A stretch of 64,000 bases of DNA from assembly GCA_017506865.1 (NCBI GenBank), contig JAFCMP010000518.1, positions 372,001-436,000 of the forward strand, written 5' to 3'. Position 1 is the stretch's first letter. Every line of letters starts with the position of its first letter. Shown one piece after another: positions 1 to 64,000 of this stretch. Both the position numbers and the translations under genes were made by a program. Under the pieces are notes generated by a model. The model did not search any database. It saw nothing but the letters and a program-made list of their open reading frames with translations, and had not been told where the DNA came from. The DNA is from Tribonema minus. Its lineage: Eukaryota; Sar; Xanthophyceae; Tribonematales; Tribonemataceae.

Positions 1-330
1 ATTCACGAATGAATGCATGGTGAAGTGAGGTGACTAGACTAGCGCTGTCAATGACAGATGACGTCGCCAATGAGTGGTCGCGCGAAGAGGCAGCCAAGGT
101 GAATGAATTCACGAATGAATGCATGGTGAAGTGAGGTGACTAGACTAGCGCTGTCAATGACAGATGACGTCGCCAATGAGTGGTCGCGCGAAGAGGCAGC
201 CAAGGTGAGTGAATTCATGAATGAATTCACGATGAAGTGGAGTGACTAGACTAGTGTGTCAATTCTCAAATGGTGTGCCGCCAAAGAGTGGATGCGCAAA
301 GAGGCAGCCAACCTGAATGAACGCGTGAAT
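1..330 (+). repeat. Tandem 106-bp repeat carrying a mini-exon
   Basis: Two near-identical copies start at 1 and 107, and a third, more diverged copy lies at about 213-330. Each unit has an AG acceptor-like site (CAATGACAG), about 40 nt that can read DDVANEWSREEAAK, and then GTGAAT or GTGAGT as a donor. The third copy is decayed. The unit therefore looks like a short exon with both splice sites that was duplicated in tandem. It may belong to the unrecognised plus-strand gene that follows. The first copy may be cut by the window edge. Confidence 0.6.
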
Positions 331-769
331 GAATTCACAATTGAGTGAACGAAAATGCTGGTCACTTTTTGGAAATTGGGTAAATTGGATGCATTGCATG
401 GTGCTGCCCTGATTGGTGTTGACGGCCACGCCATGAAGTCAGGCACTGCGTCGTACGCGCACAAACTTGCACGCACGGGTATGACAACCTGAGCAGTAGA
501 CTTGCCCTTTTGCTGTTTTGCTACTGCGCCGATGCAACGGGCGCAAAGGCGCCAAGGCTGAGACGCAGACTTTGCATCTGTATCCGAAGGCATGATCGCG
601 CACACTTGGGGTTCATCAGGGTTTACCCGGGCTTAGGGTTGAGGTTAGGATGAGGGGTAGGCATGTTTGTGGTGGTGTTGACTCCTTGGACTCGTGTGGC
701 ATGCCCGGGAGTGAGTGAGTCTTGCGCTAACGACCTGTCTGGCGTTATCTTGTGTTTTTCTTGCTGCAG

Positions 770-805
770 CTCATTGGTTGGGTGCTTGCGCAGGGCTGGA
801 CAGAG
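770..805 (+). CDS. Possible 12-codon exon of unrecognised gene
   Basis: The interval is bounded by TTGCTGCAG and GTGAGAG, is 36 nt long with no phase change, and reads LIGWVLAQGWTE. It resembles the start of the exon at 1899 (APLLAWVLTPEGELDE), so it could be an upstream exon of the same gene or another diverged copy of that exon. No family was recognised. The support is only the two good splice signals and the phase. Confidence 0.3.
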
Positions 806-1339
806 GTGAGAGTTCTCAGCACCATTCGACTAGGAGCCCTGTATTTGGCGACAAAACACTTCCTTGGTCGCCAAGGATGCCTGCATACCTACTCTTGTTG
901 TTGACTTGTTGGTGTACAGCAGCTACTTCTTGCAGTTTCATGTTTATGAGTGTTGATATAGTATGCATAGATGTACATGCATCTTGCAGGTAGAAGTATA
1001 GAAAAATGTCGCACACCGGTACATTTGATAAGACACGTAACACGCTCTGTGCGCTGCACTCTGTGTCAGTGCGCACGTTGTTGCTGTCGATACCTATCAA
1101 GGACCGTGTTGCGTGCTGTTTTGCTTGGAGGCAACACGATTTGGCGATGAAATGACAAAACTGCTTCTCACTAGGGTCAGTATCAGGGTTAGGGTTAGCG
1201 TGCTAGCGCGCGATGAGATTGAGACGCAGCGTTTTACATGTTGTGTCTTACTTATTGCAACGAGCAACACAGCTATCTTTGCAGGACGGGGTTCAGTGTC
1301 TTACATGTTGTGCCTTACTGACGGCGACGCACGCATTGT

Positions 1340-1898
1340 AACTTTCTGTCCTGCAGGAGGCTGTGGCACCTTGCTGGCCTGTGTTTTGACCCCTGAGGGC
1401 AACCTTGATGAGAGCGTGCAACATGCTTTGATGACTCCAACTTGAACTTTTTAAAGAGGAGCAACCATAACTCTTGATGAATTGTAATGTTCTGTCCTGC
1501 AGGAGGCTGTGGCACCATTGCTGGCCTGAATTTTGACACCCGAAGGCGAGCTCGATAGCGAACTTGAAGTTTTCAAGTGAAGCATTCAACCAGAATTGAC
1601 TTGATGAATTGTAATTTTCTGTCTTGCAGGAGGCCGTGGCACCATTGCTGGCCTGGGTTCTGACCCCTGAGGGCGAGCTCGATGAGAGCGTGCTGCATTG
1701 CTGTGCTGACTCGAACATCAAGTTTCCAAGTGGAGCATCCAACCAGAACTGACATGATTTTTCTGAATCATCTGCCCTGCAGGAGGCTGTGGCACCATTG
1801 CTGGTCTGGATATTGACACCCGAAGGCGAGCTCGATAGCAAACTTGAAGTTTTCAAGTGGCATTCTGACTTGACGAGTTGTAATTTTCTGCCCTGCAG
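1340..1898 (+). repeat. Acceptor-side exon-edge array, four decayed copies
   Basis: Four copies of the acceptor and first part of the exon at 1899 precede it, with exon-like parts starting near 1357, 1502, 1630 and 1784. All begin CTGCAG or TTGCAG followed by GAGGCTGTGGCACC or a close variant. Longer and shorter versions alternate, and each is followed by intron-like DNA with the word AACTTGAAGTTTTCAAG or a relative. Several copies contain in-frame stops. They look like tandem duplications spanning the intron-exon border, with only the last copy joined to a full exon. Confidence 0.8.
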
Positions 1899-4259
1899 GA
1901 GGCTGTGGCACCATTGCTGGCATGGGTTCTGACCCCTGAAGGCGAGCTCGATGAGAGCGTGCTACACGCTGTGATGACTGCACTACCATGGATGCAACCC
2001 AGCGTGAATGAAACGATGGCGTGGGCGGTTGACGAGACCCTCAAGGCAGACGACTATAAGGTGGATTCGTAACTGTTGATGTTTGAAATTGCCAACTATA
2101 AATATTGGTTTTTAAGGTGCAGAACAGTACATACGATCAATCAAAGACCCTCAAGGCAGATGACTACAAGGTTAACCATGAAGACTCGTGGCCAATGACT
2201 GCAGCAGCGGCGACCACGGTTATTGGTGGAAGGCACTTGCGGCTAATTATCCCTTGTCACCTAAGTAGAGCTCTACGATCTTTTGATTCTTTTTTCATAA
2301 AGAACTGTTGTTGTTTGAAATCATGACGTTTTGATGCAGACGACTATAAGGTGGATTCGTAACTGTTGATGTTTGAAATTGCCAACTATAAATATTGGTG
2401 TTTAAGGTGCAGAACAGTACATACGATCAATCAAAGACCCTCAAGGCTGATGATTACAAGGTGTACCATGAACACTCGTGGCCAATGACTGCAGCAGCGG
2501 CGACCACGGTTATTGGTGGAAGGCACTTGCGGCTAATTATCCCTTGTCACCTAAGTAGAGCTCTACGATCTTTTGATTCTTTTTTCATGAAGAATTGTTG
2601 TTGTTTGAAATCGTGAAGTTTTGATGCTTAAAAAGCACAACAGCACAGCCCTCAAGGCAGACGACTACAAGGTGAATCGTAAACTATTGATGTTTGAAAT
2701 CGTAAACTATTGAGGTTTGGAGTGCAGAACAGCACAGACAATAGATCAAGGACCCTCAGGACAGGTGACTGCAAGGTGAACCGTAAAGAATTGGTGTTCT
2801 TTGAAAGCGCAGAACAGCATGATAGATCAATGACCCTCTAGGCAGACGATTACAAGGTGAAGGGTAAACGATTGTCGTTTGAAGCGCAGAACAGCACAAA
2901 TGACCAATAAAGACCCTCAAGGCAGATTACGCCAAGGTGAGCCGTTTATGGGTTGTTTGAAGCGCTGAAAGGCACAGATGATCAATACTTTGTACAGTGC
3001 TGTACAGTAGGGGTCGTCACTCAAGGCCGGCGACTATCAGATACTTGAGATTTTCAACACGCTGGTGTACTGGGGTGTACTGCGATGATGCATTTGTGTA
3101 CCGCTCGTGTTGACAACACCACTGCCTCTGATGCTTATGCGCCTGCGCGTTGTGCGCCGCTGCAGGAGTATGCCAAGGGCATAATTGTGGAGATGCTCAA
3201 GTCACAGGGTGCGCAGGCCGCAGCCAACGCTCAGGCTGAGGCGCATCTGCAGCGTGCCAAGGTATGTATGTATGCATGCTTGAAAACAGGATGAAGCGAG
3301 ATGCCAGCTTGATGGTCATGTGTGCGCTCAGTTGTTGCCCTAACCCTAACCCTAACCCTAATGGTAGAATTAACCCCTACAGTAGCAGTGATAATGCCCG
3401 GGCTGAGGCTTACCAGGATGCCCATGCGTGCTTGCGGTTTTTTGTCTTAGTCATTATATATCACCATTACAGCGCTACAGCAAGCAGATTGAAGTTACAT
3501 GTTGCCAGAACACCACAAGAGGAAACCACAAGCATGCGGTGCTTAGCCCCAAATGTAGCTCTAAGCGTACTGCCAAAGGTGAATGCAACTGTAACAGTGA
3601 GGATTGCCCAGCCGTAGCTCCCTGTCACTCTAGACGAGACAGTATTCTGTTCTACTTGTTCATCACGATTCCATCAAGCACGTACATTCCATGGTGCTCG
3701 ATAGTTTGCTGCTATGTGCGTTCAACTTTGTATGAGCGCTGATGGCAGCAGTTTAAAATACTCTAAACTTGCCTCCACTTTGTCCTACTCACCATACTTT
3801 GCGATGTACTCCAAAGGCTCAATTTTGTAGGAGTGGTCAACTCAAGTGCTCATCAAACTTCAAGTTTACCTCATCTCGATTTTATCGGCAGATCTGTTGT
3901 CAGATTTGCTGTTGCTGCGCCCCCCCCCCCCCCCCCCTCTGATCGCTCCTAAACTCCTCTCGCCATATCTGCAGGCACGTTCCTCTAAGGACAGCATCAC
4001 CATATTGGCTGGCACAAAAGACAGCGATCACCCAGCACTTGACGATTTCGCGTCGCGCGTACGCGACAAGGGCGAAGAGGCACTGGCAGACTTGAAGTTA
4101 GACACGACAGATAGCGAAGAAGATCAAGTTGGTGACGACAGTGACATTGGCGCGAGCTTCAACAAAGACGCAAACGTGCACAAAGGCAGGCCGCAAGGAG
4201 GTGGTGCTGCCAGAGATGATGGCGAGTCTGCAGATGGTGCAGATGGTCAGGTGTCATGA
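1899..4259 (+). CDS. Unrecognised multi-exon gene, 3' part
   Basis: Three exons join in phase 0. Exon 1899-2060 (54 codons) begins EAVAPLLAWVLTPEGELDES and ends ADDYK before GTGGAT. Exon 3166-3261 (32 codons) begins EYAKGIIVEMLKSQG, is rich in Ala, Gln and Glu, and ends before GTATGT. Exon 3975-4259 follows ATCTGCAG, begins ARSSKDSITILAG, becomes acidic and Gly-rich, and ends at TGA. A short in-phase piece at about 3030-3060 (GDYQILEIFNTL) may be an extra exon between the first two. The C-terminus looks disordered. I recognise no domain, and the 5' end of the gene is not defined. The introns hold the tandem arrays described separately. Each exon is moderately supported; the assignment to one gene is inferred from phase and spacing. 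Confidence 0.5.
2185..2292 (+). repeat. Interspersed repeat family, copy 1
   Basis: A block of about 110 bp has the core GCAGCGGCGACCACGGTT, followed by a TGGTGGAAGGCACTTGCGGCTAA-like stretch and ending in a CTCTACGATCTTTTGATTC-like end. It recurs at 2475-2585 (through the 290-bp duplication), at 25020-25145 in reverse orientation, and in more diverged form at 32505-32612. No coding potential or clear terminal repeats were seen. It could be a short non-autonomous transposon or SINE-like element. Confidence 0.6.
2475..2585 (+). repeat. Interspersed repeat family, copy 2
   Basis: This copy is nearly identical to the one at 2185 because it was carried along by the 290-bp tandem duplication, so it does not count as an independent insertion. 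Confidence 0.6.
2640..3060 (+). repeat. Donor-side exon-edge array, decayed copies
   Basis: At least five further copies of the motif CCCTCAAGGCAGACGACTACAAG-GTGAA (with changes) occur near 2650, 2755, 2835, 2918 and 3020, at intervals of about 80-100 bp. Each is preceded by CAGAACAGCAC-like DNA and followed by GT. Together with the 290-bp duplication they form a ladder of about eight donor-like sites derived from one exon end. Confidence 0.75.
3338..3361 (+). repeat. Interstitial telomere-type repeat (CCCTAA)n
   Basis: Four tandem CCCTAA units lie in an intron of the first gene. The same word occurs at 18342-18380 and 57655-57684 and singly at many other places in the window, often as AGGGTTAGGGTT. 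Confidence 0.8.
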
Positions 4260-5415: not shown

Positions 5416-6841
5416 TCACGGCGCCCGCTTGCAGTCCTTGCAGGCAGCACGCCGCCTACCGTGCTCACAGATGCCAGCACCGCCGCACACGTTGCAATAG
5501 TATCGCCGCCTCCCGTGCGCGCATATTCCCGCCGCACTCCGTGCACTCGGAATGCTTCCTGCTGTGCTCACACAGCCTCTCGCCGCCGCAATCCTTGCAG
5601 TAGCGACGCATCTGCCGTGTGCGCACAGTCCTACGCTGCCGCAGGCCTGACCACACACACTATTCACACAGTCATTCACAGATTCATTCACAAATTCATT
5701 CACACACATTCTTGCAGTAGCGGCGCTCCCTGCCGTGCACGCAGATCCCTGCGCCGCCGCAGTCCTTGCAGGCACAACTCTGCTTGCCGCGCTGGCATAT
5801 GTCCCTGCCGCCGCACTGCGTGCACCTGCTGCGCCGTGTGCCGTGCGCGCACATCCCTCCACCGCCGCAGTCTTTGCAGTAGTAGCGCCGCCTGTCGTGA
5901 TGGCAGTTGCGCCCCCGCTTCGCTTGCGCGGGCCTGGCTTCCCCTGTGCCGTTCGCCTCCCCTGTCCCAGCTGCACCGCCAGTGCTCGCAGGCCGCAATC
6001 GCGATGCACAGGATGCAGTTGAAGTTGCTGCATGTCGGCAAGAGATGGCGTTGGCAGGACCGGCGATGCGTGCGCATTTCCTCACCGGTTTGAAATTGTC
6101 ACTGCTAGTGGTGCGGGAGTCCCAGGCGTCGCTGCTGCGCCGCTGCCTGCGCCGCTGCCACCGTCGCCCGCCGAACTCTCATCGCACGTGCTTCCAGCCT
6201 GAGCACGCTCTCCGGAGTCGCTGTCGATGTAGGTGCTGTCGCAGGCGTCCGAGCCGCCGCTGTTGCCGCCACCAGCGTCGGTGCCCTCCTCTCTTTCTTG
6301 ACAGCTGTTCTCAGCGACCTCTAGGCTGACGCTGCCAACTTCAAGTTTGGTGTCGTTGTCCAGCGAGGGATGCTGTAGTCGTCGCCGCTGCGGTCACCGT
6401 CGCGGCCAGCGTGACGCGCAGTCACCGCGCCCCCCTCACCGGTCTTGTCACAGCTCCTGTATGGGCGTTGCCGCCACCACAGTGACTGCTGCTGGTACTT
6501 GCTGTTGTCGGCGATTTGGTCTGCATTTCCGCGTGGAGCGTCGAGAGCTGATGGTTGTCCCCTCCGAGCATGCCCGCACCCTGCTGCAACTTGGTTTCCA
6601 CCCCATATGCCGTCCGCATCCCATCTGTTAGCTGCCATTGCTGCAGTTGCTCACTGCCAGCCCCCATCGCACGCTGCTGATTTTCGATTGTGATCCTCAG
6701 CTGTTCCTCCAACTCACGCAGCCTGCCCTGTCGCTGCTCGCTCGCGGCTCGCTGCCGCTTGTTCACCTCCTCCAGCTTCTGCAGCCAGTCGTGCTGCCGC
6801 CTGTTTTGCTGTTGCAGCTGAACGGTGACTATCGTGCTCAT
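5416..6841 (-). CDS. Coiled-coil protein with CGG-type zinc-finger repeats
   Basis: Reading from the right, exon 6841-6440 starts MSTIVTVQLQQQNRRQHDW and is a Gln/Glu/Arg-rich coiled coil. It ends at CCG before GTGAGG. Exon 6372-6086 joins in phase 0 after GACTACAG, begins HPSLDNDTKLEVG and is acidic and Gly/Ser-rich, ending before GTGAGG. The C-terminal part from about 5960 to 5416 encodes tandem repeats of the form C-K-D-C-G-G-x-G-I-C-x-H-G-R, a zinc-binding repeat seen in many algal and protist proteins. Three repeats are in one frame at about 5735-5895. The later repeats (to 5416) lie in other frames and are split by a 60-bp GAATGAATTTGT-like segment, so introns or indels occur there. An alternative upstream start at 7104 would add a poly-Gln stretch but is in another frame. 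Role unknown; a nucleic-acid- or protein-binding scaffold would fit. Confidence 0.6.
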
Positions 6842-10338: not shown

Positions 10339-13300
10339 ATGGCTAACAACGAGCTGGTGAGTGCACGTGACTCAAGCGTAACAGCGGCGTAGACGACGAG
10401 CGCGCGCGCATGCCACTCAGCAAAGACGGCCATGCGGTCACGACGATAGCGATACTGCAGTGGTCAGAACACAGCGGTCTATGCAGCTTCTGGCTGATCG
10501 AAATGTCGGTGTCAAGGCGTGCATCAGCTGAACAAGCCAGGTCCTGCTCCTCTTGCCCGTCTGCTAAGCTTTCTTGCGTTGCAATTCGACATCGGCAGAT
10601 AACAGCCTGTGGCGTGGCGTGGCACAAAAGCTGCTAGTAGTAGTACATGGAGCGATTCATGCACTAACAGCAGGTGCATCTGAACATGAAGTCTCGTTGT
10701 CATCGGGCACTTCGAGACCGTACACCATGTATTGAATGGTTATGTGCTCGTTTCAGGTGGCTGTAGTGGCAGCAATGCTGGCATTAGTCCGGTTAGCAAG
10801 GTGCAGGCAGACCCTGCAGTCTGATGCGCACACACCGAGACTGCGTTCATGCAAAAGAAAGCAAACTGGTAGGTACAAGTGTACATAGAAGTAGACATCT
10901 GCTCAGGGGCCGCCAAATGTCTTGGAGATGTTGCAACAGAGCAGAGCAGCTACTGTCGTGGCATCACATGCGGTGGTAACACTGCAATGTTTTGACAAGT
11001 CCGCATCAGAAACAGTGCTGGCTGTTCAAGTGTCAGTTATGAACCTTGCTTGGTTGTGGAGTCCCCTAGCTACGAGAAGTACATGAACTTCAATTGCATG
11101 CCCCACAAGCGCAGTGCTCGGCTTGTACTATGGCTTTGGCATGACGTGAGGTCTGCCCCTAGGGTTTAGGTTAGGGTTCGCCTCACCCTATCCTTAAGAA
11201 AGGCATGTGTGTGCCTTGCACTTTTCTCATTGTAGCCTGTGCAGCGCGGTGTCTGTAGCTGTGCTCAGCGCAGGCTGCATCTGCATGCATACATACATAC
11301 CCTACATGCGCGCGCCCACATTGCAACCGTATCCAATGACCACCTGACTGACCACGAAACCTGACAGTGAGAAATGAGCAGGCACACGGTTTATGCAGCT
11401 CTAAACTCATGTTGTAGATACTGATTTGGTCGCTGCGATGCAAGATTCAGCATTTCTTCTGCGCCGCAAGTGACGGAGGACATGACAGTCTGAAGCAGTG
11501 CTCACAACTCAGTGAGGCGCACCATTTTAGAATCTGAAGTTGAGACCCTGCGCAATGCTTGTGGCAGGGTCAGGGTTGAAGTTCGGGTTAGGTCAGGTTA
11601 ACCCAGTTGGACTGGTGCTGGACCGACGGTGCTGCTGTGTACCGTTGCTTGTTTTAAAAAAGTGCACCAGGTTGTCCATTCTTTGGGTGCTGAAGCAGCT
11701 CAACCTTGAGCCTCAGAGAATGAAGCACTTGGAGCGATGGCGAATCTGGATGTAGAACGTTCCAAAGACCTCTGGGTACTTCAAAGATAATTGCACGAAC
11801 CATGTTCTTCCAACCACTACCCCCCTGAACCTATGTCAAACTGAGCCTTGATCCATACATACCTACTCTTTGTGCCCCGTGCCCTGCTTGCCAATGGCTT
11901 TGCATCTTCAGGCGGCAAAACTCGCGAGACGTCAGGAACTATGCGCAGAGCACGCACCCCCCCCAAAGCCCAAGGGGGCCGGCGGTGAACTGGCACGGTG
12001 AGTGACTCGTTCATGACCGAGTGACTCACCATGATGCTTCAGAGCTCTGTGACGTATTGTGCCGCCGGTTCAAGGGATTGGCACGTTGCGCCACTGCCCT
12101 CACTGCTGAGAATGACGACCTGCTGAACTTCAATTACATCAAGTTGCTACTGCTTGATCTGCTCACACTTCAGAGTACTTTTGCTTTGCCGGACTTGTGC
12201 TGACGCCCAGTGCTGTGGGTATGTATGTATGCATTATATACTTCTATGCAGGATGCTCAGCAAGCGCGCTGAGCTGGCGGAGCCTGCGCCAGTGCTCCCC
12301 ACACAAGCCATGGAAGACAGGGTGCGTTTCATGAATGAAGAAGAAACTGGAGGGTGCAACGAGGCGTTGACATGTATATGTGTCTAGGTCATGGATGGGC
12401 TGCTGTCTACACCTCATGTTTGTACAGGTTTTTGAAGTACACGTAGATTCTGTTCTACAGCCTTTTGATATCTATCGTCTGGGCTTGTTCGCGCCATGAG
12501 CAAGAACTGACGAAAAGTACACGCATTTTGAAGTGTAGCAGAGGAGGCGCCTTAGTCATAGGACCTTTGGAGTATATTCGAGGTGTCGTACTACATAGTA
12601 CTTATACAGCCAGCCATAGCAGCTGGGAGATGCACACCGACTCTCTAACAATGTCATTGTGTCGTTCAGAGCTGGCTGCATCTGGAGCTCACAAGTCCAG
12701 CCCTTCTGGTACGCTTTGTATTCGTGAGAGTGTCGCTCAGGGCTAGGGTTAGAGTGAGTTTCCCTACTTGGTAGCTGTAGGGTTACTGGCCCTTGATCCG
12801 AACCCTATTGATGAAACACTCAGCACGGCTGCATGCTGCTCACTGCTGCACCGCACAAGCGGGCGCATGTGCAACTCTGCGAGGCGCTCCCTGACCGTTT
12901 GTGATAACTAAGCTTCAATCCCACACCTATCCTCAACGCTGAGTTCCAACCCCAAGCTATCCCCAATCCTAACATAACAACAACACTTACCTGAGCCCTC
13001 CTCATAAAAACTACCCTAAAAAAATTGCGGCATGTTGCTCACTGCTGCGAACGCGCCTTCAACGCTGCAAAACAATGAACTCATCATCGTGAATAGCGCT
13101 GAGCACTGCCATGCGTTGATTGCTGCTGCAGCGCACGAGCGGACGCGCCTTCAACCCTGCAAAATCATGAACTATAACTATACATTCATCATCATGTTCA
13201 GCGCTGAGCACTGTCATGTGTTGATCACTGCTGCAGCGCGCAAGCGGACGTGCCTTCAACCCCGCCACGGAGTTCTCTGAGTTCTCCCGCAAGGAGATCA

Positions 13301-15470
13301 CAGAGTACACTGCGGCCTTCCGGACGTACGACGTGGACAAGTCAGGGACGCTCAACATCGAGGAGCTCAAGAGGATGATGGAGAAGTAAGTGCTCATTGG
13401 CCTCACCATATTACCCCTGAAAGCGTCTGACACCCTATTCTAAAGCCTCCCACCCCACGAACATCATATCTGCAGCTGGTCCTTAATGAGGCGTGCATTT
13501 GAGCACAGTCCCCTCCCTGGTGCCCAGGCCACGTGGTTATGCGCAGCGCTGCGCACCTATGACCTTTGTTCTACATTGATCCCCAGTCCATGTGTAAAAT
13601 GAGGTCTTGTGAGCCGGTGCTTGACAACGTGTCCTCTGCACAGCTGGGCCACCCTCATACGGTTACGGCTGCATGGATCATGATGCGCGCGAGGTAGACT
13701 AGAACCACGAACACGATATCAAACTTCAAGTTCAAGTTCAACCGACTCGCACATTTGCTGTATTGTTTTTCCTGCAAGTACAGGCTGAGCCACCCCCAGA
13801 GGCGCAAAGCGCTGTTGCCATCATGCGCGAAGTAGACTAGAACCACGATTGCGATCGCTGAGAGAGAGTTCTGATCAACTTCAACCAACCCTCACTTTTC
13901 ACGCTTTGCCACTTTAATTGCTCGTACAGGCTGGGTCACCCCCAGGCACACACAGCGCTGTGCGCCATGATGCGTGAAGTAGACCAGGATCACGACGGCA
14001 AGATCAGTCAGATATATAACATCAAGTCCAACTTCAGCAACACTTACACGTGCTATACTGTGTTTTCTGTACGTACAGGCTGGGCCACCCCCAGACACAC
14101 ATAGTGCCGTGTGCTATGATGCGCGAGGTAGACCAGGATCACAATCACGAGGTCACTCAGATATCAAAGTTCAAATTCAACTTGAACCGACACTAACATT
14201 TGCTATGTTGTTTCCTGAACAGGCTGGGCCACCCCCAAACGCACACAGCACTGTGCGCCATGATGCGCGAGGTAGACCAAGATCACGACGGCGAGATCAG
14301 TCAGAGAGAGTTCTTCAGCATCTTCAGGCGCGCGCGTGACGGGTCCCTGCAGAACTGCCAGGGGCTACAGGAGATGGCAACCAGGTCAGTGGTGGATACA
14401 CTTTCAAGTACACGAGTACATATTTGTGTGTTGATGAGATACAATGTACACATTTGTGTGTTCATGAAGTTGCCTGTACGAAGGGTTGAGGTTGAGTTTA
14501 GTTACTAGTAGATGGAAAGCAAGTCTGTGGTTACTTTCAAGTAAGCAAGTACACATTGCTGGGCGCTGTCGCGCTCGAAACGAGATTAATGAAAAGTAGA
14601 CGTTTCGTACTCGTGAAATCGCCTGTTGAGGTTGAGTGTAGGGTTACCAGTAGGTGAATCTACCCCAAGGCTGTTTCCATGTGCTCACAAAGTCCCTCAA
14701 GTTCCTACATGAATGGGCGGTGCGAAGCTGCACATGAAATGCATGCTGATGTTCATCATCATGCCCTTTGTCGGCTGCATGTCGACTCATTGTAACTGTT
14801 GTCATCTTCGGGTCCTGGAAATCCTGGGCCATGGTGTTCGTGCGTTCCCCTGAGGCGTAGAATGAGTTTGGTTTTGCCGCTTTAAAGCTCAGCTTCAGCT
14901 TCTTCCTGCATCATTCTCCGGTTGTAGCACTGGCGGCTGTATACACACACGTTGTTACTGTAAACATAACATGGCATGCACTGACTCAACACGATCGAGC
15001 TCTGTTGCTGCCCTGAACTCTCATGCGCTGATGTACACACAATTGGTAGGGCCCTTTTTGACTTCAAGTTGAAGCTTTGATGCCAGGACCAGCACACACA
15101 CAAGGGCTCCCACAAGCTACCTTCACCTCTTGATTACTTCACACACCTCTGCCATCACAAATTGAAGTTGAAGAGTATGCATCTAGACGGCGCTTCTGAC
15201 TTGTCAATTCCCCCCCCACCCCCCCCCCCCCCCGGCCCCCCCCCCGCGCCCCCCCCCCGCAGCCTGTCCTGCATCGACGTGTCCGAGGTGGGGGTGGGGG
15301 GTGCCAAGTCCTTCTTTGAGGCCAAGGCAAACGAGCTGAAGCGTTCCAAGGAGGCGGAGGATGAGGTGAAGGCAGAGCAGGCTGCGCGCAAGGAGTCCAT
15401 GCTGGCGGAGGTGCAGCGCAAGACGGACTTCAAGGACCGCCTCAACAAGTTCAACAAGGGGGGCGCATGA
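10339..15470 (+). CDS. EF-hand protein of the EFHD/swiprosin family, six exons
   Basis: Exons 10339-10356, 11912-11997, 12252-12321, 13237-13385, 14223-14384 and 15263-15470 join with matching phases into 230 codons plus stop, close to the 240 residues of animal EFHD2. Every intron is GT-AG. The N-terminus MANNELAAKLARRQEL matches the ELATKLSRR region of swiprosins. FNPATEFSEFSRKEI (65-79) matches the family's FNPYTEFKEFSRKQI. EF-hand loops are DVDKSGTLNIEE (90-101) and DQDHDGEISQRE (126-137), both with all calcium-ligand positions filled. Next come the swiprosin-like signature IDVSEVGVGGAKSFFEAK and a charged C-terminal coiled coil. The family binds calcium and, in animals, actin; the role here is inferred. 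Decayed copies of the exon 4 and exon 5 edges fill introns 3 and 4. The 3' end of the last exon (CAACAAGGGGGGCGCATGA) is duplicated once just downstream. Confidence 0.93.
12815..13236 (+). repeat. Acceptor-side array before EFHD-like exon 4
   Basis: Three decayed copies of the acceptor and first bases of exon 4 lie at about 12838, 13042 and 13126. Each has CACTGCTGCAG or a relative, followed by CGCACGAGCGGACGCGCCTTCAACCC-like DNA, and the intervening AATCATGAACT...CAGCGCTGAGCACTG segment is also repeated. The real exon begins at 13237 and alone continues past CCCCGCC. Confidence 0.8.
13640..14222 (+). repeat. Acceptor-side ladder before EFHD-like exon 5, four copies
   Basis: Exon-like parts begin at 13644, 13794, 13930 and 14079, with the true exon at 14223, giving spacings of 136-151 bp. 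Each copy has a TACAG or CACAG acceptor, GCTGGGCCACCCCCA-like DNA and the EF-hand loop region, then breaks off into intron DNA containing CTTCAA/TTCAAG words. The two distal copies carry TAG in the loop. The copy at 13930 still encodes a good loop (REVDQDHDGKIS). None of the four has the donor end of the exon, so splicing into them could not rejoin cleanly to exon 6. Confidence 0.9.
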
Positions 15471-17195
15471 GCAACTTCAACAAGGGGGGCGCATGAGCAA
15501 CTTCAATATCAAGCCCACCAAAGGGGGATGTGAAGGGTGCCTTTGCCCCGGGGGGGGGGGGGGGGGTGGCAATTTCTGTTTATTGTTGAGTGAGGGGTTG
15601 CAGGGAGTACGGGGGGGGGTGGCGGGGGGTGGGGACAGGGGGTACAGTGGCTCCAACGCATTGATTGATTGGCGCGCCGGTTCGATTGGGAGTGCGTTTG
15701 GGGTTGACTTTGTGCCGCGCTGTGGCCAGACAGAAAGGGACACCCATGATACACCTTTTCGCCCTGCTGCCTCGCCTGTCTGCATGCAGATAAAGGGTAA
15801 GCTGGGGGGGGGTCTTCCCAAAGCGCCATGTAGTATTCGCATCGCTTCGAGAGCCGACGCTTCATAAACACTTTTACTTAGAGGTATATGGGGTCAGCGG
15901 GGACAGACTGGAGGGGGGGGGGGGGGGGCAAGAAACGGAGGGCTGTAGCAAAGATTGATGTTGGCTGCATTGAGTGCGGAATCTCACAAACTGCAATGGT
16001 GACGTCCAAGTTGCTTAAATTTACAATTGTGGTGCCGCATTCATTGTTCATGGCGGAGAATGTTGCGTTGCGTGCAATCTGCATTCAGTTTGCTGCACAT
16101 TGTTGCTTTCACTGCTCTCAGCGGTGCACTTGTGATGGTATGAGTACGTGTTGTTGATCTTGGCTGAGGGTGCAAGAATTCCCAGCTGTGTAGCAACAAT
16201 GGTGAACTTTCGCATAGACTAGAATCGACGTATCCACCGATCATGTGACAGTATCAGGGCAAGTAAGGCGCAGCTTGTTAATAAAAGTGCAAGAGAGAGC
16301 TGATTCCCGCTGGAAGCAAAGGTTCACATCACTTCACAAGCCGAGGTGGGAAAATGCGCAAGGCAACAATGAGTTTGGATGGTCAGCAAGTTCAGCACAG
16401 TGTTTGCGTGCAAAGAAAGCGTTTGTGTGTTGTCTGCTTGCTGCACAGAGTCGACAAGCGTCACAGTTGTGCACCATAGGGGACGCGACGTACATCCTAG
16501 GTACTGCAATGGCCATTTCAGCTTCTGCCCACAGTCGCCATCATAATGGTCCACACGACGTGAACAGAAACAGCAGGTACTGTCTACTGCAAAGAGATAT
16601 ACAGGGTAGGTATCATACACATGCAGCATCGCTCAACAAGTTTGCCTACACCCGTGCCATCATGACTGTTCACACTACATGAACAGATACAGCTGGTACT
16701 GTCTACGGCAAAAAAATACAGGGTGTATATCATGCACATGCAGCATCGGCGATGCTGCATGTATCGCCCGACAAGTTTGCAAGTGCAACAACGCTCAGCG
16801 GTTACCACTGCAGACACCCATGACTTCAACGAGCCAGTGACATATTATAATGGCTCAAGCTGCACATGTACAGGGCAGCGAATGGCAAAGAGATAGAGGG
16901 TATGTATCATGTACATGCAGCATTGCTCAAGAACCAGTTTACAAATGCAACAATGCGCAGCGGCTACCACAGCAGCCGCCCATGACTTGAACGAGCCAGT
17001 AAAATGATGGCTCGAGCTGACCATGCACAGAGCAGCGAAAAGCGCACAGAATTGTAATCAAGTGCGGCAACCTGAACATGTCCCGCACTTCACAGCAGCT
17101 CACACTCCATGCGCTAAGATCCACTTACAAAGTGCAGCAGAGTTGAAGTATAACATCAAGTTGAAGTACTGAAAAAATAACGTCTATCATCATTG
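15471..17195. other. Intergenic region with G/C homopolymers and minus-strand tandem units
   Basis: 15545-15900 holds several long G runs. From about 16480 to 17060 a unit of about 150-190 bp is repeated three or four times. Read on the minus strand it contains CTCTTTGCAG-like acceptors followed by VDSTCCFCSRRVDHYDGDCG or a decayed relative (VDSTSCICSCSVNSHDG). This looks like another exon-edge array, but no gene could be assembled around it. Confidence 0.45.
16480..17060 (-). repeat. Tandem exon-like units of unknown gene
   Basis: Repeated words include ATGCAGCAT(C/T)GCTCAA, CTGTCTACTGCAAAGAGATA and GACTTGAACGAGCCAGT, at successive positions across 16550-17000. On the minus strand the best unit (about 16516-16603) is open and Cys-rich between an AG acceptor and CCATTGCAG. 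Function unknown. Confidence 0.45.
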
Positions 17196-52972: not shown

Positions 52973-55900
52973 ATGAAGTTCGCCAAAGCCATAGGGCTGA
53001 TCGACCACCCTCAAAGCTCGCAGCCCTTCACCTATTCTGGCACCGTTTTCGAGATCCTCGTATGGGATGTCAAGCTCTGGTTCCTGATTGGATGGATGCT
53101 GTTCTGGCTGATCCTTCGGCACACGGGCTGCATCGACCCTGCAGAGATCCCCACTGTTGCTGGCAAATACCTCGGGTACAACCAGGCGGTGCTGTCCTTC
53201 CTACTGGTATTCTTCCTCAACTCGTGAGTGATGTACCAAACGGCGGCTGAAGCAAGCAGAATGTCATTCATGGTCTGGTGCACAGTGCTGAAATTTGTGT
53301 CTGTTACGGCACGCATGGCCTCACGAAGGCCGTGCAAACACTACGTGAGGCATCGTCGCGACCCAAGACTTAGTGCAATTTAGGTTTACGCGTAGAGCAA
53401 TCGTGATACAGGCCGACAACCAGCAGCAATTGCCTCAGCTGTGCAACCAGCAAATTGCTTCACGTGCATGGCATGTAGGCTTTCTAGACTCATATCAATG
53501 AAGCGCATGCCTGCTTGACTGCTAGCTACATGCATGCAGGATTGATGACTCAGCTGCACTGTCATGAGAGCAAAAGGGGTACTGAACCTATTAGGTCATT
53601 GCTTCTCTGTTTGCAGCACCTACAATGAGTTTAAGGAGCAAGGCCGCGCTGCAGTCGCCGGTGGCAGTCCCTCTGGCACAGTGAGTACATAATCTATAAC
53701 ATTATGCGTGGCATTCGGCACAGACATGATGTACACTCTGGCACGGTAAACCACGCCATAATCTATTGCGCATTGCATCTGACCCACATATCAATTACAC
53801 ACAGTGTGTGTGTGATACACCTAGGTTGGCTGACTCTGGCGCCTTGCACCATGAGCGCAATGTTCATTTCTGCACCTTGAATTTGCGGAATGTTACTGCC
53901 TGTTGTAGGCATGCTGATGAGCTGTGCAACATGTATGCTGGCAGCAATCACCAAAGTGATGATTTTTGCACTGTGGCTCAAACAGTTGTTTGTGCAGCAG
54001 TCTCCAGTGTAAACCGCGCACACACAGTTTTTAAGGTCTGTCGCGCGATCGAGCAGTGTCAGGTCATACACATCTCAACTCCCGAATGTGCAAACACCAA
54101 TTTCATCACCTCGATGATGATGCTCAGGCAGTCATCATGGCCAAGGTGTTCTTCAAGCACGAGCCTGCACTTCAGGAGCGCGTTGTGAGGCTGGTCAACG
54201 CTGCGCACTACCTGAGCTGGATGGACCTGGCGCACTACTACAGCTGGACGGAGCTGCTTGAGAGGGGCCTGCTGACAAAGGTATGTATGTACGTCACTAA
54301 TGCAGCTGCTGACAAGGGTATGTATGTACGTTACTACTACAGCTGGATGGACCTGGCCCACTACTACAGCTGGGCAGAGCTGCTTGAGAGGGGCGTGCTG
54401 ACAAAGGTATGCATGTACGTTACTACTACAGCTGCTGACGAAGGTATGTATGTACGCTACTACTACAGCTGCTGACAAAGGTGTGTATGTACGTTACTAC
54501 TACAGCTGGACGGAGCTGCTTGAGAGGGGCCTGCTGACAAAGGTATGTATGTATGGTGTCAAAGCTAGGCGGGTGTGCTCACAAAGTCAGGTTGCGTTCA
54601 GAGGCGAGGTAGCTACATATGCTGGCAATGATAGACATAGGCATGCATGCTGGCAAAGGCATTTGTGTGTACTGACAGCTAGAGGCCGCATACATGGTGA
54701 CAAGGGTACGTAGGTATGTTTTCGATGGTGGAAGGCATGTAGCTGGCAAGGGACAAGGGTATTTGTAGGTACGTTTCTGATGGGGGGGGGAGTATGCATG
54801 CTGAAAGGGGTAGGCAAGCAGTCACCTGCATGTGCACATGCCAGCCGCCTTCTGAGTGCGAAGCCGAGTGCTCGGGATGGCCTCTGGCTGCTGCACACGC
54901 GGCGTGCAAGCAGCAGTACCTTGACAATACATGTACAGAACTCTTGCATGTATGAAAGATAGTGCGAGAGACAGACGCAGAGGTATCGCATGTATGAGCA
55001 GGATTATGGCATGTGAAGTATGAAAGACAGTGTGAGAGATAGATGCAGAGTCATGGCAACTTGTTCACCGAGGGCATGTGTGCCCGCTGGTGTCACCAGG
55101 CACATAATCACTGGGGCCTTGTCACTACAAGAACCGATAAACTGCGCACGCTCTGCACTTCTTCAGCCAAGACCTTGCTACACAACTTGCCAAATCTACA
55201 TCGACTAATGGACTAGACCATGTAGATGTCAGTCAATTATACATGGCAAGATAGCAGCTTACTACAGCGCCTTCTGAAAGCTTGCGCCACCAACATTGCA
55301 TATACGTATGTCTGCGGCAGGTGGAGATCAGCGCCCTGAAATCAATTCCCGCCTCCAAGAAGAGCCCCATTGCCATGGTCTGGGCCATGGAAGAGGTGGC
55401 CGCGTATGCTGAGCGGCAGGAGCGGGCGCTGGAGCAGTGGCTGGCACTGCCTGATGCGCAACGGCTGGGCAGCAAGCCTGCCGCCGTTCACGATCTGGTC
55501 ATGATGCGTCTGATTGGTGAGCACTGTCAACACTTGAATTCAGTGATGAAATCGCCTGAGGCGCAACGGCTGGCCAGCAAACGCGCGTCTGTTCATCATC
55601 TAGTCACGATGCGTCCAATTGGTGAGCAATGTCAACACATGAATTCAATTATCAGCATATGAACTCAGTTGTCATCACATCAATTCAGTTGTCAAACACA
55701 TGCAATTCTAACTCTGCCTGAGGCGCGCAGCGGCTGGGCAGCAAATCTGCCGCCTTTGCAAGATCTGGTCATGATGCGCTTGATTGGTGAGCACTGTCAA
55801 CACATGAATTCAGTTGTCAGCACATGAATTCAGTTGTCAACACATGAAGTCAGGCGCAATGGCTGGGCAGCAAACCTGCCGCTGTTCAGGATCTTGTCAT

Positions 55901-58388
55901 GATGCGCTTGATTGGTGAGCATTGTCAGCACATGAGTTCAGTTGTCAAGCCCAGCACCTGTGCAAGCCTGCGGCCGTTCATTCTTACGTCATCATGCGTT
56001 TCATTGTATGACTTCGTGATGACTTTAATGCTGCGCGCTTTGATGCTCTGCTTTGCTTGCAGAGCTTCTCACATGATCTTATAAGAAAAGCTGAGAAATG
56101 TTCTTTCTGTAGTTTACCCATGTGCCTATGCATGAGCTACTTACAACTCATGACCTCATGCAACGTACAACTACTGATTTGTTGCTTGTTGTTGCGAGCC
56201 GATTCTGTTGATGAAAAATGTGCCGCACATGGCATGCCTCATTAACGGCAGGCAATGCCTTCCGCCTTTTGACGTGCAAACTTCAACTTGCTACAGCTCC
56301 CGGCTTGCTGCCGCCTACAGATACTCTCAACGCTCACTCTACAATGCGCTGACGATTATGCCGCAGCCGGCAGTCACATTCATGAATCAGTGAGTGCGGT
56401 CATTGCGTTTTGAAATTGTAGTTCTCTGCTTCACTGCTGTACGCAGACTCGCTCCACGAGAGCTGCTTCCGCCACACGCAGCAGGCCTCATGTGCGGGAG
56501 GCAGTTACTTTCATGAATTCACAAATTCGGCCCCCGAGAGCGCTTTGATACGCTTTGTTGTGTACTTGTCACAGCACGCACACTTCAACTCTGCTTGCTT
56601 CAACTTCAACTTTCTCGCTGCCGAACGCGCGCAGACTCGCTCAACGAGGGCCGCTCCCGCTACAACGCGCTGGCCATTTGCCGCAGCGTTCAGGTCCCAA
56701 CCATCTACACGCACATGCTGTTCTGGCTCATGACGGTGTTCCTGCTGGTGCTGGGGTTCTATGCCGGTGAGCACTGACTGATTGTGCTGAGCGCTGCTGC
56801 TGGTCGTAGTGTGTGGGGTATGTATCTGTATGAATAATGCTGCGGCAAACGAACGAATTTGATATGCACATGTTGAAAGGTTGTTATGGCTGAATTGAGG
56901 TGTAGTACTGACAGATGGAGCAACCAAAGTTCAACGCCTGAAGATGATTACTAGTCAGGTCCACAACAGCGATACATGCGGACTGTTACACGCGAGCCGG
57001 TCAATGACATGCGCCATGTTTTGAGTGTATGATCGCTAACACAAGTGCTACGGTCCCTTCAGAGCTATTACAAATTTCGTAACTTCCAAGACATGCATTC
57101 TTACTACCTTCCCAAAACGTGCTCTCTTTTTCACATGTACTACACTATGCATCCACCGACTCAGCAAGGATCAGATCACAGACTCATGTGTGCATTTTAA
57201 GCCACCTCGTTGATATTTCCCCCTCTGCGATGGTATTCTACAGGCATTGGAAGCGAGACCAGTGCTGACGAGGTTGCGGACCAGTCTTGGTGGATTGGAG
57301 GCTACATACTGGTCACACTCAGCTTCCTGGGCGTGTTTGATGTGGCCATGGCACTCAGGGAGCCCTTCGGCATCGACTCCGGCTTGGACATTGACCCGTG
57401 AGTATGTGCGCTGTGCCTTGGACTAACCATAATGACGACTTCAATGCCCGCGTATGCTATTTCGACTTCGAAGTATGAGGTTTGGGCACCTCAAAAGCTT
57501 GCCCCAAGGGGTGACATTGACCCGTGATTCTGTGCGCTGTGCCTTGGCCTGACCATAACTGTGAGGTCAAGACAGCTACTGCTGTGCCTTGGCCTAACTA
57601 TGAGTATGACGTTAAGAACGCTGTTTCGTGAAGTTATGCGGTTGTGGAGCCTAACGCTAACACTAACCCTAACCCTAACCCTAAGCAGACACTTGCCCCG
57701 ATGATTACACTGACCGTGAGTTTGTGCTGTGCCTTGGTGCCTTGGCCTGAACACAGCTACACGATTGACTACAGAATTGATGTCCAAGCATTAGCTATCT
57801 TTGTGTGGCATTGCAGAAACTTGCTCCGATGGTGAGTCTGGGGTCTTTCCACAGATCTGCGCCCTTGTTCATTGGCCAGAGGGTATGCTTTGATATCGTG
57901 TACTTCATGTGGCTGTATATTCAATTGTCTGGTTGACGCTACGAGACTTGATGTGGTTTCCTTACCATGATGTTGTATCGGGAGCGCTCCTCGACGTTCA
58001 TAATGTGCACGCGACAGCAGCATCATCTGTACTACCAACTGCAATGCAAGCCTCAGCATCCGGCGCAGCCAACTGCTATGCAAGCCTCTGCATCCGGCAC
58101 AAGCGCAATCTGACGCGCCACTGACCATGTCCCCTGTTTTTCAGGCTGATCTTTGTGGAGGGCAACATGAAGACACACAAGGCCATTCTAGACATGCCCA
58201 CCATGCTAGAGTTGGAGCAACCGCAGAAGCCCAGCTTCGACATGTTCATGCGGTCCAAGCCAGCGGAACTTGCAGGGGACTTTGCACCTGCCGCGCGGGG
58301 GCCCTCCTACGTTTCCACCTACAAGGCGCCCGACAATTCGGAGATGAGAAAGATGCTTTCGGCGCGTCTGCCGAAGGATGCCGAGTAG
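52973..58388 (+). CDS. Bestrophin-like anion channel, seven exons
   Basis: Exons 52973-53223, 53617-53680, 54128-54280, 55321-55516, 56635-56766, 57244-57397 and 58145-58388 join in frame throughout to 397 residues and TAG. All introns are GT-AG. Family features: an N-terminal SGTVFEILVWDVKLWFLIGW membrane segment, the NAAHYLSW...YSWTELLERGLLTKVE region that corresponds to the bestrophin NLSH...F.T...GFMTxxE stretch, VQVPTIYTHMLFWLMTVFLL (compare IPLVYTQVVTLAVYSFFL), and GVFDVAMALREPFGIDSGLD leading to DIDPLIFVEGNM (compare VAEQLINPFGEDDDDFE). Bestrophins are pentameric anion channels; algal members pass chloride or bicarbonate and several sit in plastid thylakoids. No obvious targeting peptide is seen. 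The C-terminal 60 residues are likely disordered. Introns 3, 4 and 6 begin with tandem copies of the preceding exon end, and intron 4 also contains decayed copies of the exon 5 start. Confidence 0.9.
54281..54760 (+). repeat. Donor-side ladder after bestrophin exon 3
   Basis: The true donor is at 54281. Copies of GCTGACAAAG-GTATGTATGTACG with variable lengths of preceding exon follow at about 54318, 54407, 54444, 54481 and 54541, with more decayed ones to about 54755. Two copies (ending 54406 and 54540) include the LDxx-type exon segment GAGCTGCTTGAGAGGGGC. The reading frame stays open through the first three copies, to the stop at 54473-54475. Confidence 0.9.
55540..56010 (+). repeat. Donor-side ladder after bestrophin exon 4
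   Basis: The true donor is at 55517. Copies of GGCGCAACGGCTGG.CAGCAA, then the VHDLVMMRLIG-coding stretch and ATTG-GTGAGCA, end near 55621, 55786 and 55916, with a decayed one near 55998. The intron parts share CAACACATGAATTCAGTTGTCA. Period about 105-165 bp. Confidence 0.9.
56290..56500 (+). repeat. Acceptor-side copies before bestrophin exon 5
   Basis: Two decayed copies of the exon 5 start (ACTCGCTCAACGAGGGCCGC in the real exon at 56635) begin near 56320 (after GCCTACAG) and 56447 (after TGTACGCAG). Confidence 0.65.
57398..57740 (+). repeat. Donor-side copies after bestrophin exon 6 and telomere-type run
   Basis: ACATTGACCCGTGA followed by TGTGCGCTGTGCCTTGG occurs at the true exon end (57388) and again near 57512 and, decayed, near 57705. 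A CTAACCCTAACCCTAACC run lies at 57655-57684. Confidence 0.75.
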
Positions 58389-61055: not shown

Positions 61056-61102
<47 letters not shown>

Positions 61103-63765
61103 ATGCGGGGGGCGTGAGTGCGTTGTGTGTGTGTGTGTGGCTTCGCATGATTGGATCACGGTGGTGATTGAATGGCGATGCTGCCTAGAGCGACGGGCAG
61201 ATCACCACAGCAGAGTGCACGTGCATAATTGTCATCATACGATATGGACTACACAATGGCAGCAAGATTTACACTTCTGGAGTATCGGTATGTATCCTGT
61301 GGCATTGTTGCGCCCTGAGCCAGAGTCAATGCAAGTTTACACACATCAGGTGTACACGCTTGTGGCAAGCTTGATTGTGATCATCTGAGCACTTTCGCAC
61401 CCTGGGCGAGGGTTGATGCAAGTGCTACACATACTTCTACAAGAAGTGATTGTCGATGCGCAATAAGACACTTCCAAGTTGTCATCAGATACGCGCAGGC
61501 TCTGATAGCAAGCATGACATCAATTATCTTTTTTTTTTTTTTTTTTTGCGCCTTAAGCAAGCAGTACTCGGAAGGTACACTTACAAACACTTACTTGCGT
61601 ACGCAAGAAGTACTCAGAAGGTACACGTACAAACACTCACCGGTGCAGATGACGATCTGCGCGTCGCGCTCCTCCGCCGTCTGCGCCCCCTGCAGCCGCG
61701 CCATCAGCTCCTCAAACGCCTGAGCGCTGCCTAGCCGCTCAGACAGCGCCTTCACCAGCGCGCACTGATTCATCATGGGCAGATCCTCGTCCTCCTCGGC
61801 CTACTCGTACACCGCAGCAAACGACGTCAGCGCGGCGCCGCCATTATAGTAGCTTGCGCGCGCCCCGCGCTTGAGGTCGTGCAGGTTCCCCAGGATGCGC
61901 AGGTAGGCGGCGAGCGACTGGTCATCACGCATGATCACGTGGAGCCGCGCCACGCTGCCGGTGAGCACTGCCGCGGCAGCCGCGCCCGCTTCCTCGTCGA
62001 TGTCGGCGTCAGTGCTCAGCAGCACGCCCAGCCCCAGCGCCGCGATCGCCGCCTCCACCACGCCGCGGTTCGTGTTGCACAGCACCGTGTACGGGTGCGC
62101 GAGCGCCGTTGGGACCTCGCTTGAAGTTTCAACTTCAGTTGAAGTTACAACTTCAGTTGAAGTTTCATGCCCATTTGAAGTTTGAGGCCCACTTGAAGCT
62201 GATGTTGGGCTTGAAGTTGAAGTCGGGCGCGACCACTCCAGAACCTCCCCACGCGCTGCCGCGCCGCCCACGATGGGCGGTGGCAGGTACGGCGGCACGC
62301 CGGAGGCGGCAATGCGCCGGTCCGCTGCCGCGCGAGCCGCAGCCATGGGCCGAAAGTGATGATCGAAGTACGCGTTCACCTCGGCGGCGATGGCGGGGCC
62401 GAAGCGCCAGGACGTGCGCATGGTGTACACGCACAATGCGCGCTGCGCAGTGGCCTGCGGCAGTGTCGCCAACGCCTGCTCCATGCTGTTGGTGGCGCTG
62501 CGGAACTGGTAGATGGACTGCAGGGGGTCGCCCCACCAGGTACATGATTGGGGACGGGGGCGGGGGGGGCGTGCACGGCGGTGCGCACGCGCGCGCGCGC
62601 GCGCATGAGGGACATCATGGAGGCCTGCACGTCGTTCATGTCCTGCGCGCGGGCAGAGTTGAAGTAGAAACAAGATTGAGATAAGTTCATGTATTCCATA
62701 GTATATCAAATGTGACGTGCCGCATAAGCGGTGGATCGGCACACAGGCCGTCAAGAGGGGAGTTTTGGCATGCGAACAGCGCTGACATGCTGGCAGAGAA
62801 CACCGCCACGAGTGCTCTCCCAATGGTGATGTGCGCACATCGATTGGGAGCGTCACAACTCGCAGCCCGCATATCGCTCCGCAAAGCTGTACAACCCCCA
62901 GAAAAAACAGATGCAATGTCAGCTGTGTGCAGCCAACAGAGCAGCACCAGAAGGAGCCCAGCACATACTTCGATATGACTGCAAGTGAGTACGACAGACA
63001 TGCCAGAAAGCCTGCACGTCCCTCAACTCGTGCTACAGTGCCAAACCTAGTGCACAGGCAAGACAACCGCATGGTGTTGCGTTGAAATGGGGTCAGGGCT
63101 GGAGTTGAACCCTAACGCACGGGAACGACGTTCACATCATGCAGCTAAACGGGCAACAGATGGCTTGCACGATTGCTGAGCAGGTCCTCTTCTGCATCAC
63201 CAGAACCATTGCGCGCATGATGATTGTACAACCGGAAACCGTTGTCCGTACAATTGACAACTGAACAACGGCATAACTGGCACTAAGGGCTGCTATTGCT
63301 GTTGCTCCTGTCGCTCATGTGCGCACCGCCCGTGCCGTGTATGCACAGTATTTCCATCCGTACTGTATGTGTACAGTGTCTTCCATTCATGCACGTCACA
63401 AACGGCAAAGCATCTAAAGTTAGCCGTGCTGCATCTAGAGTTGATGACACAGCGGCATACTTCAAGTTTGAAGGATCTTGTACCTGTGCTTCGTCCACCA
63501 GGACATGGTCAAGCGCGGAAGCCGTGCTGTGTAAGCGTTTCCACATCTTCCATTCGTGCACCTTGTACAACGAAGACCAACCATCTGCAGTTAGTCATGC
63601 TGCACGTACGGTGATGTGTGTCTGGCTGGCGTACTTCAAGTTTGAAGTAGTGTGTACCTGTGCTTCATCTACGAGGACGTAGTCAAGTGCGGCGGAGGAA
63701 ACGCCGCTGGTGCCGCGGGGCGCAGACCAGAGCAGCGTGTCGTGAGGATGCTCCAGCATGTAGAT
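60093..63765 (-). CDS. FBH1-like superfamily 1 (UvrD-type) DNA helicase, partial and disrupted
   Basis: Minus-strand exons: 63765-63658 (36 codons, IYMLEHPHDTLLWSAPRGTS to YVLVDEAQ, motif II), 62642-61641 and 61044-60093. Across them lie DMNDVQASMMSLMRAR, GDPLQSIYQFRSATNSMEQ (motif III type), TMRTSWRFGPAIAAEVNAYF (motif IV), VHQTKGREWPRVQLGSDFG (motif V) and VGVALTRTQLQLRLSKS (motif VI). The order and spacing fit F-box DNA helicase 1, a 3'-5' helicase that curbs recombination; the Walker A exon lies beyond the window. As read, the middle exon changes frame twice in G/C runs around 62525-62580 and has an in-frame TAG at 61801-61803. The last exon changes frame once in a poly-Ala/CTG linker near 60720-60790. 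These could be true decay, strain variation or sequence errors. The (CT)n pyrimidine tract of the last intron lies at 61061-61098. The 494-codon plus-strand frame over 59904-61388 is a shadow. Confidence 0.7.
61061..61098 (-). repeat. (CT)n microsatellite as polypyrimidine tract
   Basis: About 19 GA units on the plus strand are CT on the helicase strand, a few bases upstream of the CATTGCTCAG acceptor at 61045. The tract therefore doubles as the splice-acceptor pyrimidine tract. Confidence 0.8.
62110..62226 (-). repeat. ACTTGAAGT-word array inside helicase coding exon
   Basis: Nine or ten copies of CTTGAAGTT or AACTTCA words are packed in about 115 bp. On the coding strand they translate, in frame, to a low-complexity Thr/Ser/Glu/Val stretch (STEVVTSTEVETSSEV). 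It interrupts the region between helicase motifs and looks like an in-frame expansion of a word that is otherwise non-coding here. Confidence 0.75.
63470..63657 (-). repeat. Donor-side copy of helicase motif II exon
   Basis: A decayed copy of the exon end (minus strand GACCATGTCCTGGTGGACGA followed by AGCACAG-GTACAAG) ends at 63484, 174 bp from the true donor at 63658. The intervening intron units share TACTTCAAGTTTGAAG and TCCATTC(A/G)TGCAC. Confidence 0.85.
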
Positions 63766-63859
63766 CTGCGGCCGCAAGCCCGGCAAGGGACACACAGGCA
63801 TCAGTGGGACTTGTGTCATGACGAATTTCAGCAGGCGGGCATGCAAGCACTTTCTGTCC

Positions 63860-63960
63860 TGTCGCTGCGGAATGGTCCAGCCGCGGGGCGCAGACCAGAG
63901 CAGCGTGTCACGAGGATGCTGCAGCATGTAGATCTGTGGCCGCGAGCACAGGAAGAGATG
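63860..63960 (-). repeat. Acceptor-side copy of helicase motif II exon
   Basis: A copy of the exon start (IYMLQHPRDTLLWSAPRG) begins at 63933, 168 bp from the true start at 63765, and breaks off into intron DNA after the shared GCGGGGCGCAGACC segment. Confidence 0.85.
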
Positions 63961-64000
63961 CATCATTTGGGATTTGTGTGATGGGTTCAACACGTTGATA

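Follow-up and report, generated by a model that had tools for sequence, protein, structure and literature searches.

Do introns in the xanthophyte alga Tribonema minus grow by tandem duplication across the borders of exons, and do such duplications fall on these borders more often than elsewhere in a gene? The question is raised by a stretch of 64,000 nucleotides (the window: positions 372001-436000 of contig JAFCMP010000518.1, assembly GCA_017506865.1, in a genome of 158 Mb and 554 contigs). In this window one edge of an exon, together with its splice site and the adjoining intron, recurs in local arrays, which we call ladders; the copies that are not joined to a full exon are called decoys. 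In our view the ladders probably result from recurrent small tandem duplications, which are tolerated since the exon-proximal copy still splices, combined with a bias towards events that cross junctions.

Window arrays were found by Tandem Repeats Finder (TRF) and self-BLAST and then read in the sequence alongside gene predictions. The arrays that an earlier note had named from the sequence alone were all recovered, and the observation itself is confirmed. Direct repeats no more than 1.5 kb apart cover 11.6% of the window bases. With short simple repeats left out and classes assigned by reading, the window holds 20 local tandem arrays: 14 include an exon edge, 3 have none that is clear, 2 are coding repeats and 1 lies in a retroelement (Table 1). 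The 14 edge arrays occur on acceptor and donor sides and on both strands. For 11 of them the gene has support from Pfam (EF-hand, FeS_assembly_P, Bestrophin, Proteasome and, barely at the cut-off, UvrD-helicase) or from PDB matches (GH128). The first gene of the window has no Pfam match, and its 3 edge arrays rest on the gene model and on reading of the sequence. Once exons 4 and 5 of the EFHD-like gene are joined, they align to EFHD2 across the functional junction without a gap; therefore, the copy adjoining the full exon is the functional one.

For counts outside the window, exons of proteasome and chaperonin (CCT) genes were located by profile search and 25 loci were fetched; window loci are excluded from these counts. 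GT-AG introns were predicted with a small hidden Markov model (HMM), trained on the same loci to which it was applied; as seed it took two frames, the pieces of PSMB3 and splice strings, all of them from the window. In these conserved housekeeping genes, datable exon-edge copies are found at 22 of the 76 sampled edges. The suggestion that nearly every multi-exon gene carries a ladder proved too broad, as just 18 of 38 sampled introns, about half, have one, and the CCT locus L036 is without any array.

A repeat with a partner on the intron side crosses 18/72 acceptor and 14/65 donor edges (a decoy piece in locus L032 accounts for 2 of the 32), against a background of about 16% of intron positions under repeats with a partner on the given side, decoy copies included. 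Predicted edges are crossed by 31 of 57 arrays, where 11.6 would be expected; 8 arrays are mixed, 18 are intron-only, and 39 further arrays outside genes were left unclassed. When profile anchors were taken as exon, with no splice prediction, 24 of the 29 arrays in 39 introns touched an anchored exon, compared with 12.1 expected from uniform placement (P = 3e-7). Without one marginal array (L032, 6103; an 18 bp profile run-on), 23 edge arrays are left and P is 3e-6. Over all 47 introns between adjacent anchors, 32 of 42 arrays touch an edge (14.2 expected). Thus, in the comparison with uniform placement that had been proposed earlier, and within two protein families, arrays are indeed commoner at borders. 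Two profile hits that repeat a stretch of a neighbouring hit (L032 at 4414 and L031 at 5917) did not serve as anchors in either test made on collapsed arrays; the edge-crossing count includes both pieces, and the count of 57 arrays leaves out only that of L032. Anchors with stops were retained, and two donor positions were corrected by hand for the comparison of edges.

An apparent excess might also arise if duplication were uniform and neutral and exonic events were purged, with edges looking enriched since the exonic half of the functional copy stays conserved and detectable. We therefore consider simulations in which neutral duplications fall uniformly, undergo substitutions, indels and deletions (in some runs also random insertions) and are detected by the same BLAST. 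At equal weights these do give a mild detection excess, with a ratio to the placement null of 1.16-1.42, and the near-neutral decay of decoys described below also fits uniform duplication. However, the simulated fraction of edge arrays is 34-45%, compared with 83% observed, and the probability of at least 24 of 29 is 5e-5 or less. A first small simulation, with a slightly different count, gave edge arrays in 17/54 and 41/116 cases. Giving edge events a weight of 3 raises P to 0.008, and weights of 6-20 fit. The preference also holds when only arrays with a best pair of 83% identity or more are counted: 7 of 7 in contiguous introns (3.1 expected) and 10 of 14 in all adjacent introns (4.1 expected). 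In three further chaperonin loci, all 10 arrays overlap a predicted exon at its edge; 3 of them are protein-anchored, and 4 overlap by just 9-17 bp. The observed 83% lies beyond the simulated range; therefore, an excess exists, at least for these two families and under this model. Uniform neutral duplication seems to us an unlikely explanation, and we are fairly confident that duplication is biased towards junctions, by a factor which the model would put at about 6-20.

The copies themselves are almost all direct and local: pairs within 2 kb number 321 direct and 6 inverted. Unit length has a median of 128 bp (quartiles 102-165; 127 arrays, coding and window arrays included). A unit comprises one splice site flanked by exon and intron, with few intron bases aligned in some copies; as regards centring on the splice site, its exon reach appears broad. 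For many of the decoys closest to the functional site, the lengths aligned in exon and in intron sum approximately to the spacing, as they would in a true tandem copy. The proposal that border-crossing tandem duplication leaves decoy splice sites on both acceptor and donor sides is supported by the window arrays and by the outside sample. A mobile or RNA-templated process, introner-like or working from reverse-transcribed pieces of pre-mRNA, could insert junction fragments beside their source, and it would account for the bias towards junctions and for copies that end at or a few bases from a splice site. The direct and local arrangement of the copies and the presence of the own gene's exon in each unit measured make such a process improbable.

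Alternative or mutually exclusive exons are another possible reading of the copies, as the plausible splice site kept in many decoys might suggest. Mutually exclusive or cassette exon duplication, however, copies whole exons with both splice sites, whereas a repeat copy covers just 1 of 72 anchored exons in full, and this exon belongs to the decoys, so no functional anchored exon is copied whole. Moreover, homology to EFHD2 requires the proximal copy only, and some decoys, for example in the first gene, carry in-frame stops when read by eye. We give this explanation hardly any credence.

Between functional copies and decoys, divergence is about 11.5% in the exon part and, more than 20 bp into the intron, about 20-22%. 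The ratio of exon to intron divergence is near 1:2, as expected if the functional exon is held while decoy exon and intron drift. AG is retained in 33 of 39 decoys and GT in 29 of 39 (one GT miss is an off-by-one edge at CIAO2B), where neutral decay predicts 30.5. Donor decoys compared with each other are equally diverged in both parts (identity 0.83 in exon and 0.82 in intron). On the whole, decoy decay is close to neutral. The nearest decoy resembles the functional copy more than the farthest one does in 12 of 20 ladders, less in 5, and equally in 3 (sign test P = 0.14, Wilcoxon P = 0.04). This is a weak trend: the decay with distance seen earlier stands to that extent, but a regular decay is not borne out.

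Selection might also have retained the edges, whether as back-up splice sites, for maintenance of intron length or in the regulation of splicing. Two findings point that way: acceptor decoys are most alike near the site, and functional donors with ladders score below other donors (P = 0.025). On the other side, AG and GT retention and the equal divergence of donor decoys match neutral expectation, and with both edge types taken together there is no difference in splice-site score (P = 0.74). Selection of this kind thus appears quite unlikely. As candidate causes of the bias, poly-C tracts, GC content and the strength of splice sites show no clear difference over both edge types.

Several points weigh against junction-biased duplication as we propose it. 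When copies were collapsed first, predicted edges were crossed by 18 of 29 arrays compared with 12.5 expected, so that P is only 0.013, a result which uniform neutral duplication can claim for itself. It should be added that 5 of the 11 arrays missed in this test hold exon sequence: two are exon-end copies running 2-3 bp beyond the splice site, one lies wholly within a predicted exon, and two are at a donor apparently misplaced by the gene model. The counts come from two protein families only and take arrays as independent, and the simulation depends on model choices. Ladders are uneven among the chaperonin loci, with nine arrays in L038, one in another and none in L036. Some copies are separated by unaligned sequence (at the L032 acceptor, 77 bp are aligned at a spacing of 129); therefore, later deletions or another process must be added. 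Among themselves, acceptor decoys show their highest likeness over the first 20 bases of the exon (0.955, 0.905), and their exon parts have diverged less than the far intron (identity 0.86 and 0.75), a pattern that could reflect some constraint or detection bias. Finally, exon GC at ladder edges does not differ significantly and does not reveal the cause of the bias.

How, then, would a ladder form? Small direct tandem duplications, mostly of 70-250 bp with the median given above, would recur in the genes of this alga. Where an event spans exactly one exon edge, the exon-proximal copy would stay joined to the full exon with the reading frame kept, and the mRNA would thus be unchanged if that copy is used. 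Its use in vivo is what we infer, with a test by homology for EFHD only. The distal copy would become intronic, be spliced out and decay almost neutrally as a decoy splice site. Repeated events at the same edge, together with nested duplications within copies, would build the ladder and lengthen the intron, while events within an exon would presumably be purged by selection. While ladders could grow without any new mechanism, one is required for the excess at junctions. By analogy with a repair route reported for small tandem duplications of other species, the cause may tentatively be sought in staggered breaks (opposed nicks) in or next to exons, which would be filled in and end-joined; the excess would follow if such breaks, or their repair by fill-in, were more frequent within exons or beside them. 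Just as tentatively, junctions might be hot spots of tandem duplication in this lineage through exonic chromatin, transcription or splicing, with introns lengthening mainly by accretion of copied exon edges. If this holds, ladders of greater age would have left behind much of the intron sequence that can no longer be aligned. The link to transcription or R-loops suggested in the earlier note finds no support here. CAACTT and telomere-type motifs, considered as possible breakpoint signals, are frequent across the sampled loci.

To our knowledge, intron lengthening without mobile elements is poorly documented. Ladder edges do lie in longer introns (median 937 bp compared with 634 bp, P = 0.004), as expected if introns grow in this way, but longer introns also give more room for copies to be found. 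Taken as a whole, the interpretation given in the earlier note is supported in part. Even so, with ladders one can measure from the sequence by itself how fast introns grow, how old the growth is and how it is biased. They also offer natural sets of splice sites that compete and differ in quality by degrees, and they indicate a bias linked to junctions which none of the uniform neutral models tried reproduces. The genome of this alga is therefore a promising place for studying intron growth.

Table 1. Local tandem arrays of the window, with the exon edges to which they belong (positions of the window; decoy offsets in bp from the functional site)
Feature	Position	Strand	Details	Evidence
First gene, donor-side array	1..347	+	3 copies, period 106; cut by window start; exon 164-204 predicted only	TRF, BLAST, sequence
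First gene, acceptor ladder before predicted exon 1899-2060	1335..1982	+	decoy acceptors -116, -269, -396, -542	BLAST, sequence, decoy measurement, gene prediction
First gene, donor ladder after exon 1899-2060	2046..2987	+	unit pair 290 bp at 96%; decoys +290, +611 measured, others by eye	TRF (unit pair), BLAST, decoy measurement, sequence
EFHD-like, acceptor-side array of exon 13237-13385	13047..13265	+		BLAST, sequence, gene prediction, EFHD2 alignment
EFHD-like, acceptor ladder of exon starting 14223	13680..14314	+	decoys -144, -293, -439	TRF, BLAST, sequence; junction by EFHD2 alignment
PSMB3, acceptor ladder of exon starting 19104	19069..19361	-	decoy -152	BLAST, sequence, Proteasome Pfam
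CIAO2B-like, acceptor ladder of exon 23790-23604	23738..24186	-	decoys -136, -377	TRF, BLAST, sequence, Pfam PF01883
CIAO2B-like, donor-side copy of the 3' edge of exon 23790-23604	23325..23675	-	copy at +183	BLAST, sequence, decoy measurement
GH128-like, acceptor ladder	35191..35496	+	period 107; decoys -107, -214	TRF, BLAST, sequence; PDB GH128 matches
Bestrophin-like, donor-side array of exon 3	54207..54553	+	nested 37-bp repeats; decoy measurement yielded none	TRF, BLAST, sequence, Bestrophin Pfam
Bestrophin-like, donor ladder of exon 55321-55516	55447..55947	+	decoys +105, +270, +398	TRF, BLAST, sequence
Bestrophin-like, donor-side copy of exon 57244-57397	57387..57558	+	copy at +126; just 11 bp exon aligned	BLAST, sequence
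Helicase-like, acceptor-side copy of exon 63765-63658	63712..63983	-		BLAST, sequence; UvrD-helicase Pfam just at cut-off
Helicase-like, donor-side copy of exon 63765-63658	63379..63692	-		BLAST, sequence
Tandem array without assigned exon edge (counter-example)	16537..17039	.	one place in genome	BLAST, sequence
Tandem array near predicted minus-strand exon 17349-17259	17360..17513	.	about 10 bp from the exon, not crossing	BLAST, gene prediction, sequence
Tandem array without assigned exon edge (counter-example)	17927..18208	.		BLAST, sequence
Coding repeats	5431-5899			BLAST list
Coding repeats	49239-49701			BLAST list
Array inside retroelement	45700-45814			BLAST list

The window and the sampled loci contain other repeats. 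A dispersed element of 111 bp lies at 2183-2293, 2474-2583, 25049-25155 and 32501-32618, and one copy sits within the donor ladder of the first gene, where it was duplicated together with the ladder. It has at least 41 matches, as counted from the 40 scored among 2121 first-look candidates; outside the window these are 92-95% identical and spread over many contigs. Short interstitial CCCTAA tracts of telomere type are frequent (for example 18342-18384 and 57650-57684) and occur in 16 of 26 sequences. In locus L017, local direct repeats make up 52% of 10 kb, the next highest value among 20 loci being 22%.

A long terminal repeat (LTR) retroelement occupies 38055-48162, with terminal repeats of 384 bp that are 99.2% identical. 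A piece of its long minus-strand frame matches the C-5 cytosine DNA methylase family PF00145; methyltransferases within retroelements are known. The minus-strand frames at 5416-6178 encode Cys/His-rich repeats with the pattern YYCKDCGG...HGRRR, which have no Pfam match and which we take to resemble repeats of the EsV-1-7 type. Coding repeats of ankyrin type, with the motif NGCPWDE, are found at 48931-49734, and a pentatricopeptide repeat gene with a single open frame at 7194-8930 has no array in the self-BLAST list. No Rfam family reaches its gathering score in the window. Elsewhere in the genome, the best PDB matches of antenna-protein genes include fucoxanthin and ACP-type chlorophyll a/c proteins; the RuBisCO small subunit gave no match in an exon-wise search, which could miss a split gene. 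Both results fit what is likely a chlorophyll a/c alga.

Duplication inside genes is a familiar process: internal gene duplication is reportedly ubiquitous in eukaryotes, to judge by the title of a survey by Gao and Lynch. Introner elements, in turn, are dispersed families and a source of introns in algae and protists, and invasive introns are said to occur in Amoebophrya. Unlike introner families, ladder copies stay local, and each measured unit carries the exon of its own gene, no genome-wide search for units having been made.

As regards the duplications themselves, small tandem duplications are reported to arise by fill-in at break ends through CST and Pol alpha-primase, and among short insertions (<100 bp) in human DNA they are described as the most frequent kind (PMC8355091). 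Like ladders, such duplications are direct head-to-tail copies; the opening sections of that paper say nothing on exon edges. Direct repeats at new introns are discussed for Daphnia and Drosophila in another paper (PMC2809761). In intron gain of the Rogers type, an exonic AGGT unit is duplicated and the donor of one copy pairs with the acceptor of the next (PMC4974935). Ladders share with it a tandem duplication within the gene that alters intron content, but they align acceptor to acceptor and donor to donor around an existing site; donor-to-acceptor arrangements were not searched for separately.

The closest likeness is offered by the RdRp gene of potato, in which one boundary-crossing tandem duplication created a new intron and an extra exon (PMC4974935). 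As in ladders, the duplication is direct, runs from the 3' end of an intron into the 5' end of the exon that follows, and copies the parent splice signals. Unlike that single event, ladders decay as decoys within an old intron, on both sides and repeatedly, and with an excess at junctions. Searches of open-licence PMC papers listed no report of pervasive, junction-biased exon-edge ladders. Thus, while a boundary-crossing duplication was known from the single case in potato, the pervasive and junction-biased ladders of decoys in Tribonema minus appear to be new.

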